Below, piece after piece: positions 22,575 through 49,000 of a DNA stretch of 64,000 bases. A program made the translations under genes and the position numbers. The stretch covers positions 36,215,501 through 36,279,500 of the forward strand of contig NC_091966.1 in assembly GCF_036711975.1 (NCBI RefSeq), written 5' to 3'. How positions within the stretch are numbered: position 1 is the first letter of the stretch; every line of letters begins with the position of its first letter. The notes under the pieces are model-generated. The model saw only the letters and a program-made list of their open reading frames with translations, searched no databases and was not told the DNA's origin. This DNA comes from Onthophagus taurus (taxonomy: Eukaryota; Arthropoda; Insecta; Coleoptera; Scarabaeidae).

Positions 22575-25285
22575 TCTTAAACCAGCCATGTCAAACATGC
22601 GGCGCATTGAGCATTTTCCTGCGGCCCGAATCAATTTTGAAAACAGCCAGATAATACGTCCTTCGAACGTGGATGAGCATTGTATTTTTCAGGAAAAGTG
22701 GGAATTAGAGTTTTTTTACTGCAAAGTAAAAGTAAGTAAAGTATTTGCTTGATTTGTAACACTACCGTCGGTGTCCAAAACTATACAATATAAAACGTCA
22801 CTATGATTGTCATAAAACTATACAGGCATCAACAGCTTATGTTTGCACGTCCAAGTTTTTTTTGTTTGTTTGCAAGCAAGACAATGAATCTGCTGTTCAA
22901 GCGAACTACGTACTGTCGGAGTTGATCGCAAACCACTCAAAACCATTTGTTGTAGGTGAATTTATAAAAGAGTGTCTTGTAAAGGCCACAGAATTTGTAA
23001 GTCCCGGGAGCGTGAAAGCTTTTCAAAATATATCCTTGTCCCGGAATACTGTCTCTCAAAGAGTTACTGAGTTGGCTGCCAATATAAGTGATCAGATAAA
23101 AACAAAATCAGACTCTTTTATTGCATTTTCTATTGCCTGTGACGAAAGTACAGATGTGTGTGGTGATACGATGCGTGCTGTTGATAGAGATATCAACGTT
23201 TATAAAGAATTACTGGAATTAGTGTCATTGCATGATACAACAACTGGGATGGATATTTTCAATGCTGTTTATGGACTTCTGCAAAAGTACAATTTAGATT
23301 TGTCAACACTATGTTCCGTTGCAACAGATGGAAAAAATAATAAATAATGGCTTCATTAAAATATTACAGACAGAGATCAGAGGAACGGGCAGTGACAATC
23401 AGATTTTCATCATGTTCGTTGTATACTCCACCATGAAGTTTTATGCTCAAAAGTAATCAAGCTGGAAAGCGTTTTAAAATCACTGAAAAAAATGCTAAAC
23501 TTCATAAAGTCCCGTGGCTTGAATCAGCGACAGTTTTTCGTGATTTTATGTGATTTAGAAAGTGCGATGACTTTCGTGTTCTATCGTTCTCGGTCGGTTT
23601 TGGAAACTTAAAGAAGAAATACGCTCTTTCATGGAAATGAAAGGACAAGATGTCAGTTTATTATCCGACGTACTAAGATCTTTCATTTATGGTAGATATC
23701 ACAAAACACTTGTCGGACTTAAATTCGAAATTGCAAGGACCACGTCAAGTTATAACAGATATGCATGATCATGTGAAAGCTTTCAAGTGTAAGATGATGC
23801 TGTAGGAAAAACAGTTAGCAGTGGATAGTCTGTCACATTTTCCGACTTGTAAGGCGTATCAGGAAAGTACAAGTGTCCTAATATTAGTGGTGGAACGGAT
23901 ATCCGGCAACTATCCGGTATCCGGCCTATCTTTGGTTGGATATTAAAAACCTATTACTTAGTACTCCACTATTCATAGGAATTTGTAAAATCGATATGTT
24001 GGAACATGAAAATTTCCCACAGTGTTAATAAAAGTGTCCTCTTTCCTATGAACCAACACATTTTAAAAAATAACTTTTAGTTTTTGAGAAAACAATATTT
24101 AAAGTTTTGATAAAAGTTTCGATGTTGCAATTTTCATCGATAACTTTCAAAATGCGCTATAAAATTCATTTCTTGAAGGATCCTTGTGGACATACCACCA
24201 ATTATTAATTAAAGTATCCTCTTTTTAATGCAACAAGCCGTTTTGAGAAATCACTTTTAGGTCTTGAGAAATAAATGTTTGAAATAATCGACAATTTTTT
24301 CGAATTTTACAATTTTCGCCGATTAAGTTTTAATAATTCGTATAAAATAAATTTCTTTGAATATGAGTATGAAAATTTCCCAAAGTGTTAATAAAAGTGT
24401 CCTCTTTCCAGTGAACTAACACGTTTTGAAAAATAACTTTTAGTTTTTGAGAAAACAACATTTGAAGTTTTGATAAAATTTCAGATGTTGCATTTTTCAT
24501 CGATAATTTTCAAAATTCGCTATAAAATTCATTTCTTAAAGGATCCTTGTGGAAATACCACCAATTATTAATTATAGCATCCTCTTTTTAATGCAACAAG
24601 CCGTTTTGAGAAATCACTTTTAGTTCTTGAGAAATAAATTTTTGAAATAATCGACAATTATTTCGAATTTTGCAATTATTGGCGGATTAAGTTTTAAATT
24701 CGTATAAAGTCGATAACTTGGAATATGAGTTTGAAAATTTCCCAAAGTGTTAATAAAAGTGTCCTCTTTCCAATGAACCAACCCGTTTTGAAAAATAACT
24801 TTTAGTTTTTGAGAAAACAATATTTGAAGTTTTCATAAAATAAAATAAATAATTTGATAATGTTGCAATTTTCATCCATAATTTTCAAAATTTGCTATAA
24901 AATTTATTTCTTGAAGGATCCATGTGGAAATATCACCAATTATTAATTATGGTATCATCGTTAACATATCTTATCAGCTTTCTTACTAATTTCATTTTTA
25001 TTCAAATATTGCAGTAATGTGGCAATGTAGGGTATTACTTCAGAAATTATAACCATAATGGCCGGATAACTGGATATCCGGCCGAAGGAGATGCCGAATA
25101 TCCGGTATCTGGCTTTTCGCAAAATCGCTATTCGTTCCATCACTACCTAATATCATACAAAACGTATACAGAGATCATAGGAAGCCTTCTAGTAGAATTT
25201 GACAGAGTCTTTAGGATTTTAAGATACTTTTGGCCCACTAGTCACTTTAAGTTTGACATGGCTGTCTTAAGCAGTAGAATGCAAG
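22575..25285 (+). pseudogene. hAT-family transposase pseudogene, interrupted
   Basis: Frame 22862-23347 encodes a hAT transposase core: AFSIACDESTDV (catalytic-region DES/T), SLHDTTTGMDIFNAVYGLLQKYNLDL and SVATDG. Shifted frames downstream continue with FWKLKEEIRSFMEMKGQDV, then after the insertion at 23885-25145 with TEIIGSLLVEFDRVFRI, FKFDMAVL. It resembles the GTF2IRD2/SCAND3-type hAT group. Frameshifts and stops disable it. The start near 22575 (CATGTCAAACATGCGGC) resembles a hAT subterminal sequence. Confidence 0.8.
23885..25145. mobile_element. Non-autonomous hAT element with internal tandem repeats
   Basis: The ends are TAGTGGTGGAACGGATATCC (23885) and, reverse-complemented, TAGTGATGGAACGAATAGCG (25145). 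An exact 8-bp target duplication CCTAATAT flanks it at 23877-23884 and 25146-25153, diagnostic of hAT-type insertion. Subterminal DNA is packed with TATCCGG motifs. The interior is about three tandem copies of a 360-bp AT-rich unit. There is no transposase. It sits inside the hAT transposase pseudogene; removing it rejoins that reading frame. Confidence 0.92.
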
Positions 25286-29644: not shown

Positions 29645-31991
29645 TTAATTATGATGGGTACATTCTATACCTCGTCCAATAAACCCCTGGATCCGTTCTG
29701 GCAAAAAACATTCATAATAAAATTGTTGAAGTCTTGGTAGCATATTATTTCTCCAAAAACTTTCGTCTCTCTCTATTTTTTCGATAAAAATGGGGTGTTC
29801 TTCATCTATATACACCACAAAATAGCACATTTTTCGTTTGGTAACGTGGAGTTGTCCTTGAATCTAAAAATATTTGTAATTTATAGTAAATATATACTTT
29901 TTTTACAGCACGTCATTGAGAAACTTGCAAGGCACCAGTTCTGGGAAGCTTCTGGCTTAAACTGTATATTTTTAAAATACCTGATAGAAATAATTGTGAT
30001 TATGTTTTAATGTTGGTTGCCCCTCCTTGTACATCAAACAAAATTGCTTGTTATTTTCTATAGCATTGTGGACTGACTGCTTCTTTATATGTAAAGAGTA
30101 AGCATACTTAATTTCTACAACGGCATCCTCTCCTACCAAACCTAGTTATATAATTTTTACCATGAAATAAAAAACAATAAAAATAAATGAAAACTAACCG
30201 TCAGGTGACGCTGCTAGAAAACCATATTCCGTGTCTACAAATAAGCCTGCATTCTGGACTAACGTACCGGTAACTTCTTCAAATTTTCTTCTGGCAACTT
30301 CTTCATATCGTTTTCCATATTCCATTGCTGGAGTTACTAAATTTTTTTTATATAAAAGTCTCTTCAAGAGAGGTGAACATGAAGTTTTCAATTTTCGTTT
30401 AATAATTGATCCAAAATTAGATGATGTGAAACGTTTCTGTCTTTCCTGTAGGTATACAGCATTACTGAATTGGCCTATTGTTGCAATCGCCAATTGCCAT
30501 TGTTCTTCTTCAGTGACCTAAAAAAACAGTAAGACAATATAAAATGGCCAATGATCATATCATAATTCATAATATTTTGTTACTAACAATTAATGTTATT
30601 ATTTTATATGAGGGTGATTAAAATTGGTAAATACCTGTAAAGATTGTAATATTCTGTTATACTCTGAATTAAATTAAATTCTGTTGTATTCAGTAATGCC
30701 TGTTGTGCATTTTCACCATAATCTAAATCTGTACCTTTTTCTACTTGTTGCTGTTGATTTTTACCTTTTGTTATTCTTGTCTTCTTCTTTTGGTCATGCT
30801 GACTCATATGTCTAATAAACAATTCGCTCATTTCTACACCTGCAAACTTTTGAAACGACTCGGGTAGCCAACCAATCCTGAAACATATTTTATAATAAAA
30901 ACAGCTTAATAATGGACATATTACTACCCGAATTGTATTTCAATGTTGAGAGGTAAGATCGCACTTCGTAAGATCGCCTTTGAATTAAATTTAAGCGTTT
31001 GCCACAATTTAATTTTGCTACAAGAGCCATAAAAACTTCAGCCTTGTTATTATTTTCATAAGCTACTAGTTTATGAGCTCTTGCCAGCACAGGTTCCATA
31101 GCACCTATAACGATTTTGTAAAAAATGAAATTAACAATCTGTGGCAGAAGTATAAATACTTACTTCTTAAGTGATATACTAATCCTGAACTAATAAATTT
31201 ATTTACTAGTGTCGCATTTCTAAATCCAGGGGTGTTACAGTAATGTGAAACACAATCACTGTGGTTCCCATAAACATGATTTATTGAATTAGCAATATCA
31301 GTTTTTAGATCTTCTGCATTTTCGTTAATTTTGGCTCGATACATAATAAATTGTTGAAGTGTTTTAATTTTTTCATTCGTTAACATTTTTCGAGCTTGAA
31401 ATGATACCCCGTCATTAGTTGCAGACGTCTTTATTTTATATAAACTTTTTCCAAAGTTCTTTATCAGGTGATTTACGCATTCTATTTTATCTACCTCCAT
31501 ACCATAACTCACGTTAGATCTAATTTTGCTGTATACGCTGGAATCGCCATCACCGATCATTTTTAGATATTTAACCCCATGCATACTTATGTTGTTATTA
31601 AAAGCTTCTACTAAAATATCAGCCTCCATTCCTGTAGAAGAAGCCTCCCAATTTTTAAAACATCTATGTTGTGATGAAAATTGTCTTAAGTTGGCAGCTC
31701 TAGTGCAAATACAACAATATTTGTTTCGCACTCAATATTATCATTTATTTTCTCAATGCCACAAATTGGCACTGAATCTACAACTACTGACCCTATTGGC
31801 TGTGCAAATTTTTCAATTGGTCTACAATAAAATCATTAGGTATTATTATTAGGATTGTCTCAACCGGAAAAAAATAGACGGTTTTCAAGTACTTACCCTT
31901 CTGATAATTCTTTCCTTTTCTGCCAAATCTTTTTCCAAGTGGTAGATCTTTTAGAGCGTTTACAAACCTTACTTGGATGTTTTTTTACCAT
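29645..31991 (-). mobile_element. Mutator-like element gene with YqaJ-type nuclease domain
   Basis: Possible start 31991 (MVKKHPSKVCKRS...), donor 31896. Block 31731-31175 matches the arthropod Mutator-like transposase domain: RNKYCCICTRAA, CFKNWEASSTGMEADI, KMIGDGDSSVYSKI, ECVNHLIKN. Next, spliced in phase, PVLARAHKLVAYENNNKAE, GGKRLN-like. Then a basic linker (30880-30635) and a YqaJ/lambda-exonuclease-like PD-(D/E)XK domain: SSNFGSIIKR, PAMEYGKRYEEVA, GFLAASPDG joined at 30193/30141 to LVGEDAVVEIK, then IQGQLHVTKRKMCYFVVY and a stop at 29645. The last three exons splice exactly in phase. The transposase N-terminal catalytic part is missing, and two upstream junctions (about 30900/30880 and 30635/30521) look out of phase, so it is probably a decayed element whose nuclease part is still open. 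Confidence 0.75.
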
Positions 31992-32555: not shown

Positions 32556-32769
32556 AAAAAATAGTATATTGTTTTATATGGAAGAGAAGCAGTGCTTTTT
32601 ATGGCGTGGTCTGTCGCTTAGCGACGAACGCAGTGAGTCGCTAATGACAGATGAGCCGTTAAAATTGTGGCGTGTCCGACAGTTTGCCGGACGAACGAAG
32701 TGAGTCCGGCAATGACGGACCAGCCACAAACGAATCTGCTTCTCTTCCGAATAAAACATAGTATTTTTT
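32556..32769. mobile_element. 214-bp MITE with two GC-rich hairpins
   Basis: Terminal inverted repeats of about 34-37 bp (32556-32592 and 32736-32769) share GGAAGAGAAGCAG and GTTTTAT, with AAAAAATA at the ends. The interior (32601-32727) is much more GC-rich than its surroundings. It comprises two direct copies of about 60 bp, each folding into a long interrupted hairpin with an 11-base apical loop GAACGMAGTGA. No open frame. See the separate feature and finding for the stems. Confidence 0.8.
32601..32727. other. Tandem covarying stem-loops (possible structured RNA)
   Basis: Copy 1: basal stem 32601-32605/32655-32659, middle 32610-32615/32646-32651, apical TTAGCGAC/GTCGCTAA (32618-32625/32637-32644). 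Copy 2: basal 32667-32671/32723-32727, middle 32674-32678/32716-32720, apical TTGCCGGAC/GTCCGGCAA (32684-32692/32704-32712). Loops 32626-32636 and 32693-32703 are nearly identical. The copies differ in stem bases, yet pairing is kept on both sides, while loops are conserved. That pattern suggests selection or copying constraint on structure. Strand cannot be decided because the hairpins are symmetric. Confidence 0.6.
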
Positions 32770-32874
32770 CTTCAAACGTTGCAAATAATTGCAATATAAA
32801 TTTTAATAAATTTAATAAAATGACAATTAACTTATTATGTATTAATCTTTTCCAATACGGCGCTAAAGTGACAT

Positions 32875-32933
32875 GTGCTTCAGCGCTATGGCGCTAAAGT
32901 GAAATTTACTTTAGCGCCATAACGCTGAAGTAC
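32875..32933. repeat. 59-bp near-perfect inverted repeat
   Basis: The sequence from GTGCTTCAGCGCTATGGCGC to its reverse-complementary right half pairs with only a few mismatches, centred near 32904. The motif GGCGCTAAAGTGA also occurs once more just upstream (about 32859-32871), giving three copies in 75 bp. The function is unknown. Confidence 0.7.
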
Positions 32934-33840
32934 TTTTTTGCTATGTTGATCTTACCAACCGTCGTTATGCAACAATGACTTACTTCTACCGCGAGTAAAC
33001 ACGACAACAAAGTTGTCATTTAATGACGTTTGAAGAAAAAAACAATTTTATCGATTTTCAAAAAATATATTTATTTAAATATAGTTAACTTAACATAGGC
33101 TACCAAACCATCATGCACGAATATCGTCTATTTCATACTAGGACTGCCATCTGTAAATCGAAATTCTAACTTATAAGCCGGAACGAAATTTTTTTTAATG
33201 AAGCCCAGTCTTAATAATATTAAATATTAATAAATTAATAATAAAAAATGTTAAATAATGCAATCTATTCCAACTTTTGTGTAACACAGATATAAATTAA
33301 ATAATTCAACAAATTTATTAGTTTCAAATATCAGAAATGTTTTTTTAATTTTTAGTTATAATTTACAGGAAACTGTAAATTTAATTTCTTTGACAACACT
33401 AAAAAAAAGTTTATTTTTAGCTTTATTTTAAAACAATAAGAAACAGACTTGCCGAACCCTATATTTTTGTAATCAGAAAAAAATAACGAATTTAATAAGG
33501 GAATAATCAGTGGATGTTTCAATTTAAAAAAAAACGAAATTGTCATATCTCAAAATCTAACCGAAAATTTTTTTTCTACTTCATCAAATTCTCTGTAAAA
33601 AACCAGTTTCCAAGTTAGCCTATTTGGACATCGAATTTGAACCATCCTGTACAGGTTCTAGAGCAGATTATTTTAAGTTCATTTCTTCAAATCTATAATT
33701 TCTTGGTCTATACGAGCCTGTTCATAAATTTCTAAACCACTTAATAAAAAGAATATCTGTAAGCTTTATTACATCAAATATACATTTAAATCAAAATAAA
33801 ACTAATTTAAATCTCAACTCATATCTTAAAAATTAATTAA

Positions 33841-37209: not shown

Positions 37210-38648
37210 TTAAATAATTGTTTTAATTAAAACTTTTGGATTTCCCATTTCATTTAAAAGATGTTCAGATTCATCTTCAAGCATTTTAGGCCCACTGCCA
37301 ACTTTAGTTTGAATAATATACTTTAATTGATCCATCTCCATCCGTTGATTCATTACTTTACCTTGTAAATCTTCAGAAATCTACAAAAAATTAATTAAAA
37401 AAATCATAAAAAGTTACAAATCCTCACATTTTGAGATAAATCTTCAAACGGAATTCCTCTAAAATACTCTTCTTTAGGTGTACTTGATGGATACACATAA
37501 TTTATTAAAGATATCACTTCAGAAACGTTTTTTTCTAACGTGTATAAGCAAGCATTTGGCCCCGCATCGAATGTATAACCCACCTAAATTATAAATTTAA
37601 TTATTATTTCTTAAATATTTTAATATTCTAACCTCAATCGACTTTTTAATTTCATTATAAGAATGCACCAAACTACAAATACTATGGGAAACATCGTTCA
37701 TGTAAACACAAGGTGGGTAAGTATCTAAACAAGTTGCATGAAACTGATTGGAATCTTTCATTGTAATTTCAGCGAATTTTTCAAAATTTTTACTTTTAAT
37801 TGCATCAATCATTTCATTGATACGTTTAGGAACAATACTTTCTGCTCTATACTGAAGCAAAGAAGACGTTTTTACACTTGTTTTCATTCCAGAGGTTGAA
37901 CTATATTTTTTTCTAGAATCATTAACAACTAATATGATAACGCGTATTTCAGGCCAATGACTTTTTGGAACGATTTCTTTCGCTATTGAATCAAAACCGA
38001 ATTCGTTTTCGCCCATATGCCATCGAACCCAGCCCCCATAAATGCTTCTACAAGCACTTCCAGATCCTCTTCTAGCGACATCGGAAATTTCCCCATCAAT
38101 TTCATATAATTTAGCTAAAGTAAAAACTAAACAAGCGTATCCCGCTGCTGATGAAGCAAGACCTGCAGCTGTGGGAAAATTATTTTCTGAACAAATATGA
38201 ATTTTCCAATCGAACCATTTCAAGTTTTTGTTCGCTTTTTTTCTAACTGGGACAAAAATTAACAATTTAAATCAACTTAAACGTTACTATATTTGGTTAC
38301 CCACTTTCTTTCAAACAACTTTGCATTCTGATGTTATCGCAATTCTCCTCTTTTCCATTCAACCAAAATTTATTCTCTTTAAAATTTGGATTTGCCATTA
38401 TCGTCGTTTTAGCACACATCTAAAAAAATTTTATGATTTTATTTCAATCAATTTAATCTTTATTTTACCTGCTCTGTATCTAATGTAGTGCTTATTGAAT
38501 CATTAATTGGTAAAATAAGTTCCTCATTTCTTTTACCCCCTAAAAATTGAAATCAAAACTTATTTATTAATTATGAAATTGATTTGAAATACTTACAATA
38601 TTTAATTACAGCTATATTTACCGGTGCGATACACGTTACAACCTTCAT
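37210..38648 (-). CDS. MVD: Diphosphomevalonate decarboxylase
   Basis: A GHMP-family enzyme that converts mevalonate diphosphate to isopentenyl diphosphate using ATP. In insects this pathway feeds juvenile hormone and prenylation rather than sterols. Exons (minus): 38648-38597, 38539-38469, 38419-38305, 38246-37633, 37583-37428, 37380-37210. All phases agree, giving 392 residues (human about 400). Seen: N-terminal [14 protein letters not shown], the GHMP ATP-binding loop [14 protein letters not shown] (about 102-115), [10 protein letters not shown] (138-147), [17 protein letters not shown], and YTFDAGPNA with catalytic Asp at about 290. The third intron uses the donor GTGGGT. Complete and apparently intact. 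Confidence 0.97.
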
Positions 38649-46000: not shown

Positions 46001-49000
46001 TTATTCTTATGAATGATTGAAAAATGAAATGTTTGAAGTTTTTAACAATGACAAAGTGGGCAATCTAGCGAACCTGCTGTTTCTGAACATTTCAGAATTT
46101 TTTCTAAGAGAAGACGAAGAAATTATGATTTTATTTAATTCTTATCATTTAAAACTTTAACATCTAAACATTTTCCACATAATTTTACACATACATTTAA
46201 TTTTTTTCATTCATAAAATTATTTAACTTATACCTAAATAAAATCCATACAATAAAAGAGAATTTGGTTTCATTTTAGCACCAAATTAACTCAATTAGAC
46301 ACTTTCTGTTACAATTTTTGCTTTAACCTTGTGTGTTATGTAAACTACTAAAAAGTGTAAACATAAAATGTCGATTATATCGTCTCAAAGAAAGGTCAAA
46401 TTCAAGGCTGCAATAACTTCTTTTGTATACATTTTAGACACCTTTTCTTCAAAATTACTACCAAACCATTTAACAATACTAAATTTTCTTTTCTGAAATT
46501 TTCGCTTCTATAATACTATAAATATAATAGTATAAAAATTATTATATTACATAATATCTTTGTCGTGGCTAAATCTCAATCAGAGGTTCCTAGCTATGAC
46601 CCTTGTAAGTTAGCGCACCAGATATCATAACGAAGCCAGAACACTATTCTGTGATGAGAGATTCATTTTGAAGCATAAAACTAGTGATGGATTTTGCGAA
46701 AAGCCAGATACCGGATATTCGGCTATCCGGCCATTATGGTTATAATTTCTGGTACATTTCTGAAGTGATACCCTACTTTGCCACATTATTCAGATATTTG
46801 AATAAAATTGAAATTAATAAGAAAGCTGATAAGATATGTCATTTTATTTGGATCCAAGATACAAAATGAACTTTTTTGATGCTGATGTAACTCACGAAGC
46901 AACTATAAAAAGAGGATACTTTAATTAATAATTGGCATATTTCCACAAGGATCCTTCAAGAAATTAATTTTATAGCGAATTTTGAAAGATATCGATGAAA
47001 ATTATTGCAACATCGAAAATTTGATCAAAACTTCAAATATTGTTTTCTCAAAAACTAAAAGTTATTTTTCAAAACGGGTTTGTTCATTGGAAAGAGGACA
47101 CTTTTATTAACACTTTGGGAAATTTTCAAACTCATATTCCAAGAAATGGATTTTTTACGAATTTTTAAAACATAATCGGCGAAAATTGCAAAATTCGAAA
47201 AAATTGTCGATTATTTCAAAAATTTATTTCTCAAGAACTAAAAGTGATTTTTCAAAACGGCTTTTTGCGTTAAAAAGAGGATACTTTAATTAATAATTGG
47301 TGATATTTCCACAAGGATCCTTCAAGAAATTAATTTTATAGCGAATTTTGAAATTTATCGATGAAAATTGCAACATCGAAAATATTATCAAAACTTCAAA
47401 TATTGTTTTCTCAAAAACTAAAAGTTATTTTTCAAAACGGGTTGGTTCATTGGAAAGAGGACACTTTTATTAACACTTTGGGAAATTTTCAAACTCATAT
47501 TCCAAGAAATGGATTTTTTATTAATTTTTAAAACATAATCGGCGAAAATTGCATAATTCGAAAAAATTGTCGATTATATCAAAAATTTATTTCTCAAGAA
47601 CTAAAAGTGATTTTTCAAAACGGCTTTTTGCGTTAAAAAGAGGATACTTTAATTAATAATTGGTGATATTTCCATAAGGATCATTCAAGTAATTAATTTT
47701 ATAGCGAATTTTGAAAATTATCCATGTAAATTGCAACATCGAAAATTTTATCAAAACTTCAAATATTGTTTTCTCAAAAACTAAAAATTATTTTTCAAAA
47801 CGGGTTGGTTCATTGGAAAGAGGATACTTTTATTAATACTTTGGAAAATTTTCATACTCATATTCCAAGAAATGGATTTTATACGAATTTTTAAAACTTA
47901 ATCGGCGAAAATTGCAAAATTCGAAAAAATTGTTGATTATTTCAAAAATTTATTTCTCAAGAACTGAAAGTGATTTTTCAAAACGGCTTGTTCCATTAAA
48001 AAGAGGATACTTTAATTAATAATTGGTGATATTTCCACATAGATCTTTCATGAAATGAATTTTATAGCGAATTTTGAAAGTTATCGATGAAATATGGTAT
48101 ATGATATTTGGTGACTATCCGGTATCCGGCGGGATTTTAAAAAATGGTCGGATACCGGATAGTTGCCGGATATCCGTTCCACCACTACATAATACGAGAT
48201 TGCTCTGGCAAGGTTTACAGAACCTATATACTTAAATTTCTACCCGAATAAGAGTATTTAATCTTTTAAAACATACAAGTGTTCATCGCCCTACTATATT
48301 GATAGCATTTATATTGATAACCTCCAGAATGTTAGCCATCATCCATAGACCTTTTATCAGTCGTCAAACATATGAACATCTTTAGCATCTGACGTTTGTG
48401 TGTTAATCTTACTCTAAAACAAATACCATTCGCAAGTTCTTCAGTATTACTTATCGCCAATTAAATAATTAATGACTTTTTACATTTTAATCTTAAGGGA
48501 TTTAACAAACTTTTTTCTTTACAGCAGCATCACCCAAACAAAATGGAAAAATCGAACTTAAACGAGAACTGGGATTATTCTCAGCGGTTAATATGATATT
48601 AGCCGTTATGATAGGATCTGGAATATTTATATCACCAGCTTCAGCTTTATATCATTCGGGATCAGTTGGAATGTGTATTATTGTTTGGGCAGTATGCGGA
48701 TTAATATCACTTTTAGGTAAACTAAACATTCAAAATTAATTAAATTCTTTTCATAATTAATTGTTTTAAGGTGCATTGGCTTTTGCTGAATTGGGAACAG
48801 TAGTGCCACGTTCAGGTGCTGAATATGCTTATTTCATGGACGCATTCGGCCCTTTACATAAATTCTGGGGAAATTTACCAGCATTCACAGCATCTTGGAT
48901 TTACGTTGTAATTTTAAGACCAGCGGAAGTTGCTGTAATCGTGATGACATTTGCCGAATATTTTTGCCAACCCATTTTAGATGCTTTATGTATTAAAGAC

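Follow-up and report, generated by a model that had tools for sequence, protein, structure and literature searches.

The two tandem hairpins at positions 32601..32727 of the window (the whole stretch of 64,000 nucleotides of Onthophagus taurus DNA analysed here) belong to a short Crypton derivative that is non-autonomous; this family identity is firm, and the hairpins are probably part of a folded single-strand recombination site of that Crypton. Both hairpins, H1 and H2, were present where an earlier note on this DNA had placed them, near what turned out to be the left end of a 478-bp element. The features on which the analysis relies are as follows.

32560..32561, + strand: host target bases AA left of the insertion; AA stood before the retrieved left ends except one (GA).
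32562..33039, + strand: whole non-autonomous element, 478 bp, TAGTATATTG...TTTGAAGAAAA, with constant ends in the retrieved copies.
32562..32567, + strand: TAGTAT, a 6-nt spacer that belongs to the element and marks its left junction, present in 68/69 retrieved left ends.
32562..32592, + strand: left end, or left arm of the putative folded site, TAGTATATTGTTTTATATGGAAGAGAAGCAG, an imperfect reverse complement of 32736-32763.
32601-32659, + strand: hairpin H1, apical stem 32618-32625/32637-32644 (TTAGCGAC/GTCGCTAA), loop 32626-32636 (GAACGCAGTGA).
32665-32729, + strand: hairpin H2, apical stem 32684-32692/32704-32712 (TTGCCGGAC/GTCCGGCAA), loop 32693-32703 (GAACGAAGTGA).
32736..32779, + strand: internal inverted copy of the joined ends (the 'splint'), kept in 63/64 elements.
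32875..32933, + strand: right-side hairpin with GCGCTAAAGTGA repeats, arms of 29 nt, 90% complementary.
33026..33039, + strand: right end ACGTTTGAAGAAAA, with 196 exact right ends genome-wide.
33040..33047, + strand: target bases AAACAA-TT (A N5 TT) right of the insertion, identified by junction comparison.

Among the retrieved loci, the left end TAGTATATTG and the right end TTTGAAGAAAA were constant and the middle varied in length. The sole retrieved left end without TAGTAT was a relic with TGGTGT (1/69), and the right-side hairpin region was retained in all but three of 64 elements. The left ends matching exactly genome-wide (AA-TAGTAT) numbered 181. A 186-bp stretch was 100% identical in 40/40 scored copies, out of 218 first-look candidates in the 290.8-Mb genome. 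The junction, deletion-map and stem counts given here, unless described as genome-wide, refer to 53 merged loci of contigs C1, C2 and C3. Four of the 56 right-end matches in these loci were preceded by GGAA or AGAA, represented the internal inverted copy and were removed, leaving 52; 67 left-end matches with AAATAC corresponded to the internal copy on the other strand and were left out as well. The earlier note had taken the element for a MITE, which was wrong in the sense of terminal inverted repeats (TIRs), as neither of the termini TAGTATATTG and TTTGAAGAAAA is an inverted repeat of the other and no target site duplication (TSD) accompanies them. Some of the copies formed a head-to-tail array (C3:10244712-10250152, loci L001-L004) of 597- and 464-bp units with junctions reading exactly GAAGAAAA-TAGTAT, so that Crypton derivatives make up a satellite-like array there. 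Such tandem junctions bear indirectly on a putative circular extrachromosomal intermediate of the element.

The element was assigned to the Cryptons, and not to the TIR-MITEs, because a 2.4-kb relative with shared ends encodes a tyrosine recombinase. This relative, L080, comprises 2415 bp between ends identical to those of the element and carries a two-exon tyrosine recombinase gene; it is the clearest of three loci with the element's left end that carry at least the start of the coding region. The locus L079 also carries a recombinase gene. Exon 2 of L080 matched Phage_integrase (PF00589) with an E value of 8.9e-10, above the cut-off, and exon 1 weakly matched the integrase N-terminal SAM-like domain Phage_int_SAM_4 (E 1.6e-4, below the cut-off). 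The residues R17, K44, H119, R122, W145 and Y154 were invariant in four sequences, namely L080 and three relatives (42-48% identical). The coding strand of L080 contained two stop-to-stop frames of at least 90 codons, both of them recombinase exons, and no reverse transcriptase or DDE transposase was found among the coding-strand frames of that size in the 2415 bp; the opposite strand contained one 111-codon frame across the left end and the hairpin module. The name is used here in the sense of a transposon with a tyrosine recombinase and without a reverse transcriptase or DDE enzyme (PMC3212892). Short terminal direct repeats, a trait of fungal and oomycete Cryptons, were absent at the ends of the element, which does not exclude an animal Crypton, because animal groups have also been reported without them (PMC3212892). 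Cryptons are likewise not known to make TSDs, according to the available text of PMC3627910. L080 also contained, at approximately 1028-1431, an inverted repeat (about 100 bp, 86% alike) that stretches from the last part of exon 1 to within the presumed intron.

Exon 2 gave 118 match rows in the genome. Nine rows, from eight copies, were 98-100% identical, and this group included five full-length copies without stops and two with one stop; the remaining 109 rows were 28-58% identical, some of them being pieces of one copy. Five loci chosen from the 109 diverged rows (L083-L087) had no clear element ends and no comparable module, so generality beyond the Crypton family of L080 is unsupported. 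Judged by eye, the inverted repeats in L086 and L087 resemble other inserted elements. When solved structures were searched by sequence with the recombinase, a single chain carried the name of a tyrosine recombinase, XerA (E 0.026); the best-scoring row (E 0.01) was labelled ribosome-associated inhibitor, and no integron integrase appeared up to E 10. No relative of the recombinase was found in viral contigs.

Comparison of the junctions revealed precise insertion into AA^ANNNNNTT, with no base duplicated or lost, and the target is dyad-like. Empty sites were sought among the retrieved loci and the window by comparing joined flanks; an ungapped paralogous empty site was found for 7/50 elements, in six cases with full identity across the 18 junction bases shown (e.g., C1:1091371 versus C1:39881099 and C2:3031361 versus C3:10244712). 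The geometry of insertion, like the identity of the element, is shown by the data. The retrieved non-tandem right ends were followed by A at +1 in 52/52 cases and by TT at +7/+8 in 50/52. Genome-wide, the 196 exact right ends consisted of 152 with TT at +7/+8, five with T and then another base, and 39 with another base at +7; 28 of these 39 read GAAGAAAA-TAGTATA, the tandem junction, and 11 did not. When only the 168 non-tandem right ends were considered, TT was present at +7/+8 in 152 and lacking in 16, and A was present at +1 in 166, the two exceptions both reading CAAATTT. At the left junction the TAGTAT of the element is retained, and the six bases after the right end belong to the target.

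If a tyrosine recombinase exchanged both strands across a 6-bp spacer, products of two kinds should result. The first, AA-TAGTAT-left end with right end-N6-TT, was the only kind seen; the second, AA-N6-left end with right end-TAGTAT-TT, was not found with exact patterns. The left-end scan covered spacers not starting with T and returned a single genome-wide instance of AA followed by such a spacer, CAGTAT, which is a point change; the right end GAAGAAAA-TAGTAT-T did not occur anywhere in the genome. One of the 28 right ends described above, at C1:42350682, was followed by TAGTATAT and then by DNA unlike the element; it is ambiguous and could be a rare other product or exception, or a broken tandem copy. 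Because the reciprocal junctions were absent in the exact-pattern scans, the one-sided junctions would fit the exchange of one strand, the + strand in the window, and at the level of sequence this one-strand signature is strong.

Several other features of the window were recorded. The segments 24006-24956 and 46906-48092 contain 363-bp tandem repeats related to arrays elsewhere that carry this Crypton, and the Crypton insertions in two such related 363-bp arrays (C1:1625390 and C2:23182474) occupied one and the same unit position. On the minus strand, 30197-31728 encodes a Mutator-like transposase (PF20700) and, after it, a YqaJ-like recombinase domain (PF09588); this appears to be what is left of a Mutator-type element close to a YqaJ nuclease. 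An ordinary host gene, that for mevalonate diphosphate decarboxylase, has an exon at 37600-38265, also on the minus strand.

In reverse complement, the internal segment 32736-32779 imperfectly matches the joined ends, right end then left (ACGTTTGAAGAAAA^TAGTATATTG...); the first part of the segment pairs with the left end, and TTTTTTCTTCAAACGT (32764-32779) pairs with the right end. The same right-end/left-end junction occurs naturally in tandem copies. The complementarity of the arms scored 27.5, whereas none of 2000 shuffled versions of one arm exceeded 10.5. By sequence and predicted folding, the two arms on one strand can pair, which would rebuild the crossover site with the hairpins at its tip, and the mismatches and small bulges of the paired arms cluster around the crossover. 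H1 and H2 are part of a single arm-loop-arm unit (32562-32779), and both hairpins are surrounded by a 13-bp stem (32580-32592/32736-32748); the unit and the stem had been overlooked in the earlier note. In L080 coordinates, the splint ends at 194, and the left module was kept to position 192 or beyond in 63/64 elements, one of which stops two bases short of the splint end. The exception (1/64) was a 215-bp relic. The 12 distinct left breakpoints lay at 192, 194, 204, 230, 251, 260, 261, 266, 375, 385, 442 and 536, eight of them at 192-266. Finding eight of eight breakpoints in the last 75 bases of 36-266 corresponds to p ~1e-4, a value that assumes independent events and was framed after the data had been seen. 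As the burst is young, common descent of the copies, and not a requirement for the module, may explain part of its retention.

The hairpins themselves are distinctive. The loop motif, scanned with three flanking bases on each side and up to three mismatches, occurred at two places in the window, H1 and H2, with 0.04 expected from shuffles; genome-wide, the loop pattern gave 354 matches and its reversed control none. Folding of 32581-32749 yielded z scores of -8.9 (RNA) and -8.3 (DNA), with 0/200 shuffles folding as well in either case. The GC-rich island noticed previously was confirmed (0.53-0.54 in the hairpin region versus 0.15-0.40 in the neighbouring 100-base windows), as was the observation that the stems of H1 and H2 differ with pairing retained in both. 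The latter had been taken for a classic covariation signature. The compensatory signal comes from two paralogous hairpins, too few to demonstrate that pairing is under selection, and paired changes of this kind could arise from template switching at hairpins. In 62/64 elements (leaving out C1:42738600, which is misaligned by an internal insertion, and C2:25760363, an old relic), 15 stem substitutions were counted, of which 12 break a pair, three make G-T and none is compensated. Covariation therefore stays unsupported, as stem changes in the young copies lack compensation, and these 15 changes, of the very type that the earlier note had named as evidence against its own reading, tend towards refuting it. 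One pair-broken form was common to three separate places and another to two units of one array, so single stem pairs are not critical. The H1 apex had lost 24 nt in four loci (L080, C1:25387710, C1:26062727 and C2:25759040) and the H2 apex was deleted in L079, the deletions running between short direct repeats; in the copy at C1:8931213, the H2 loop was inverted within an intact stem. Each apex is individually dispensable. A scan for the same loop on other stems, covering stems with A or T as the next base, gave one match and one in the reversed control.

Taken with the junctions, the predicted pairing leads us to infer a single-stranded step in the movement of the element. The single-stranded module would fold and bring the joined ends into pairing with the inverted copy, and the recombinase would then see a double-stranded-looking site with mismatches around the crossover, cut one strand and join it to the target; replication would resolve the one-strand product. 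The hairpins would serve as a terminal structure that holds the arms together and is replaceable in detail, and the splint could also align both element ends during excision. The earlier proposal of a DNA structure recognised by a transposase finds support in spirit: the hairpins cap an inverted repeat containing the recombination site of a tyrosine-recombinase transposon. Several points run counter to the folded site, among them the uncompensated stem changes, the youth of the burst, the 16 right ends lacking TT, the loci L083-L087 and the ambiguous right end at C1:42350682. Folded as single-stranded DNA, moreover, the two strands of the natural tandem junction are almost equally stable (-70.6 kcal/mol for the transferred, top strand versus -67.6 kcal/mol for the other). 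One-sided junctions could also arise through biased mismatch repair after an ordinary double-strand exchange.

The latter possibility is the principal competitor, although we consider it unlikely. It holds that the Crypton recombinase performs an ordinary double-strand exchange with a 6-bp stagger, that the heteroduplex spacers are always repaired or segregated one way, and that the inverted copy acts in duplex DNA as a second arm to which the recombinase binds, the hairpins being spacer. Tyrosine recombinases typically use spacers of 6-8 bp between inverted arms (PMC3212892). The dyad-like target was also used in both orientations: two opposite insertions (L019 and L020, flanks compared by eye) occupy one AA-N6-TT site in an inverted repeat, and two copies at C7:2096112/2096133 (2096112-2096161) lie tail to tail with eight bases between their right ends. 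However, unbiased resolution would leave the reciprocal junctions that the exact-pattern scans failed to find, and the donor spacer, TAGTAT, differs from the target spacers. Differing spacers are usually not tolerated by ordinary second-strand exchange. Double-strand exchange also leaves unexplained why the hairpin-tipped inverted copy was retained so consistently. A still less likely account gives the H1/H2 pairing no function of its own, the arms being kept complementary by template switching in replication while riding on a recently expanded element. Both the inverted H2 loop and the apex deletions between short direct repeats are as expected of replication at hairpins, but the inverted copy and hairpins were kept in 63/64 elements, whereas the rest of the element was freely lost.

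It is very improbable that the hairpins act as RNA, be it a structured transcript, a small-RNA precursor or a ribozyme of the element. The strong RNA fold and the differing stems of H1 and H2 with pairing kept are what such a role would lead one to expect; the uncompensated stem changes in the copies, the existence of one-apex-deleted copies, including the recombinase-carrying L080 and L079, and the parity with the control in the scan for the loop on other stems all argue the opposite. The Rfam search of the window, which addressed a known family as an explanation, returned no family at the gathering score, so the folded RNA suggested in the earlier note gained no positive support. At a lax threshold, 13 matches (11 miRNA and two small-RNA families) were obtained, all within the element; the best reached 31.4 bits versus the 90 required, and the sole match on H2 was mir-7616. 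An RNA family as the identity of the hairpins was dropped on account of these weak matches. An initial reading took the element for a Helitron-like (Helentron/HINE) rolling-circle element with the hairpin pair as its 3' palindrome, and its layout does resemble HINE anatomy (PMC4067079): a subterminal inverted repeat, a palindrome near one end, no TSD, an A/T-rich target and tandem arrays. This idea was abandoned once a tyrosine recombinase was recognised in copies that share the ends; a relative with shared ends encoding an enzyme with R-K-H-R-W-Y, together with a target of AA^AN5TT instead of a T-rich sequence flanked by T, makes it the least credible of all, and it is largely refuted by L080. 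Helitrons may also exist in the Onthophagus taurus genome.

The folded single-strand site that we favour has parallels in layout, which are offered as analogy with no claim of homology. Animal Cryptons, including the non-autonomous CryptonI-1N1_RPro, are likewise tyrosine-recombinase DNA transposons with abundant short derivatives, in which terminal direct or inverted repeats were not found (PMC3212892); the target rule AA^AN5TT, the one-sided junctions and the hairpin-bearing inverted copy described here are unreported in the available portion of that paper. In the attC sites of integrons, two arms pair on one strand with an unpaired spacer and bulged bases, the terminal structure is variable and sometimes branched, which may be likened to the replaceable H1/H2, and only one strand recombines (PMC2727003), a property with a putative counterpart in the one-sided junctions described here. 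The attC system differs in being bacterial and in using IntI and the partner site attI (PMC2727003), whereas the present element is eukaryotic, has dispersed targets and uses its own joined ends as arms. In CTX phage attP(+), acted on by XerC/XerD, a pair of inverted att copies separated by 90 bp folds into the functional site when the DNA is single-stranded, and the target dif1 also has a 6-bp central region; CTX depends on host Xer enzymes and fixed dif sites (PMC4246890), unlike the present element with its self-encoded recombinase and more than a hundred targets. A further two-recombinase system is similar in its tyrosine recombinases, 6-bp spacer and top-strand-only exchange, and differs in having two other core genes and a spacer carried over from the donor; as far as its available description goes, its authors detected no inverted repeat structure in the att sites examined.

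Proposals for how Cryptons move draw on an analogy to bacterial elements, and animal Cryptons have been described, in the available text, without terminal repeats able to serve as substrates (PMC3212892). No folded or one-strand mechanism for Cryptons was found in the open-access literature as represented by titles and the openings of abstracts. The exact ends, the target rule and the one-sided junctions come from a recent burst, and the mechanism is therefore directly testable. We regard as evenly balanced the broader proposal that an animal transposon moves as a folded single strand by means of a tyrosine recombinase, with a splint capped by two hairpins and one-strand integration. If true, this would make the element a eukaryotic counterpart of integron cassettes and the CTX phage, and it could explain the missing terminal repeats in animal Cryptons. 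Should the single-strand route hold, folded-strand tyrosine recombination would not be limited to bacteria and phages.
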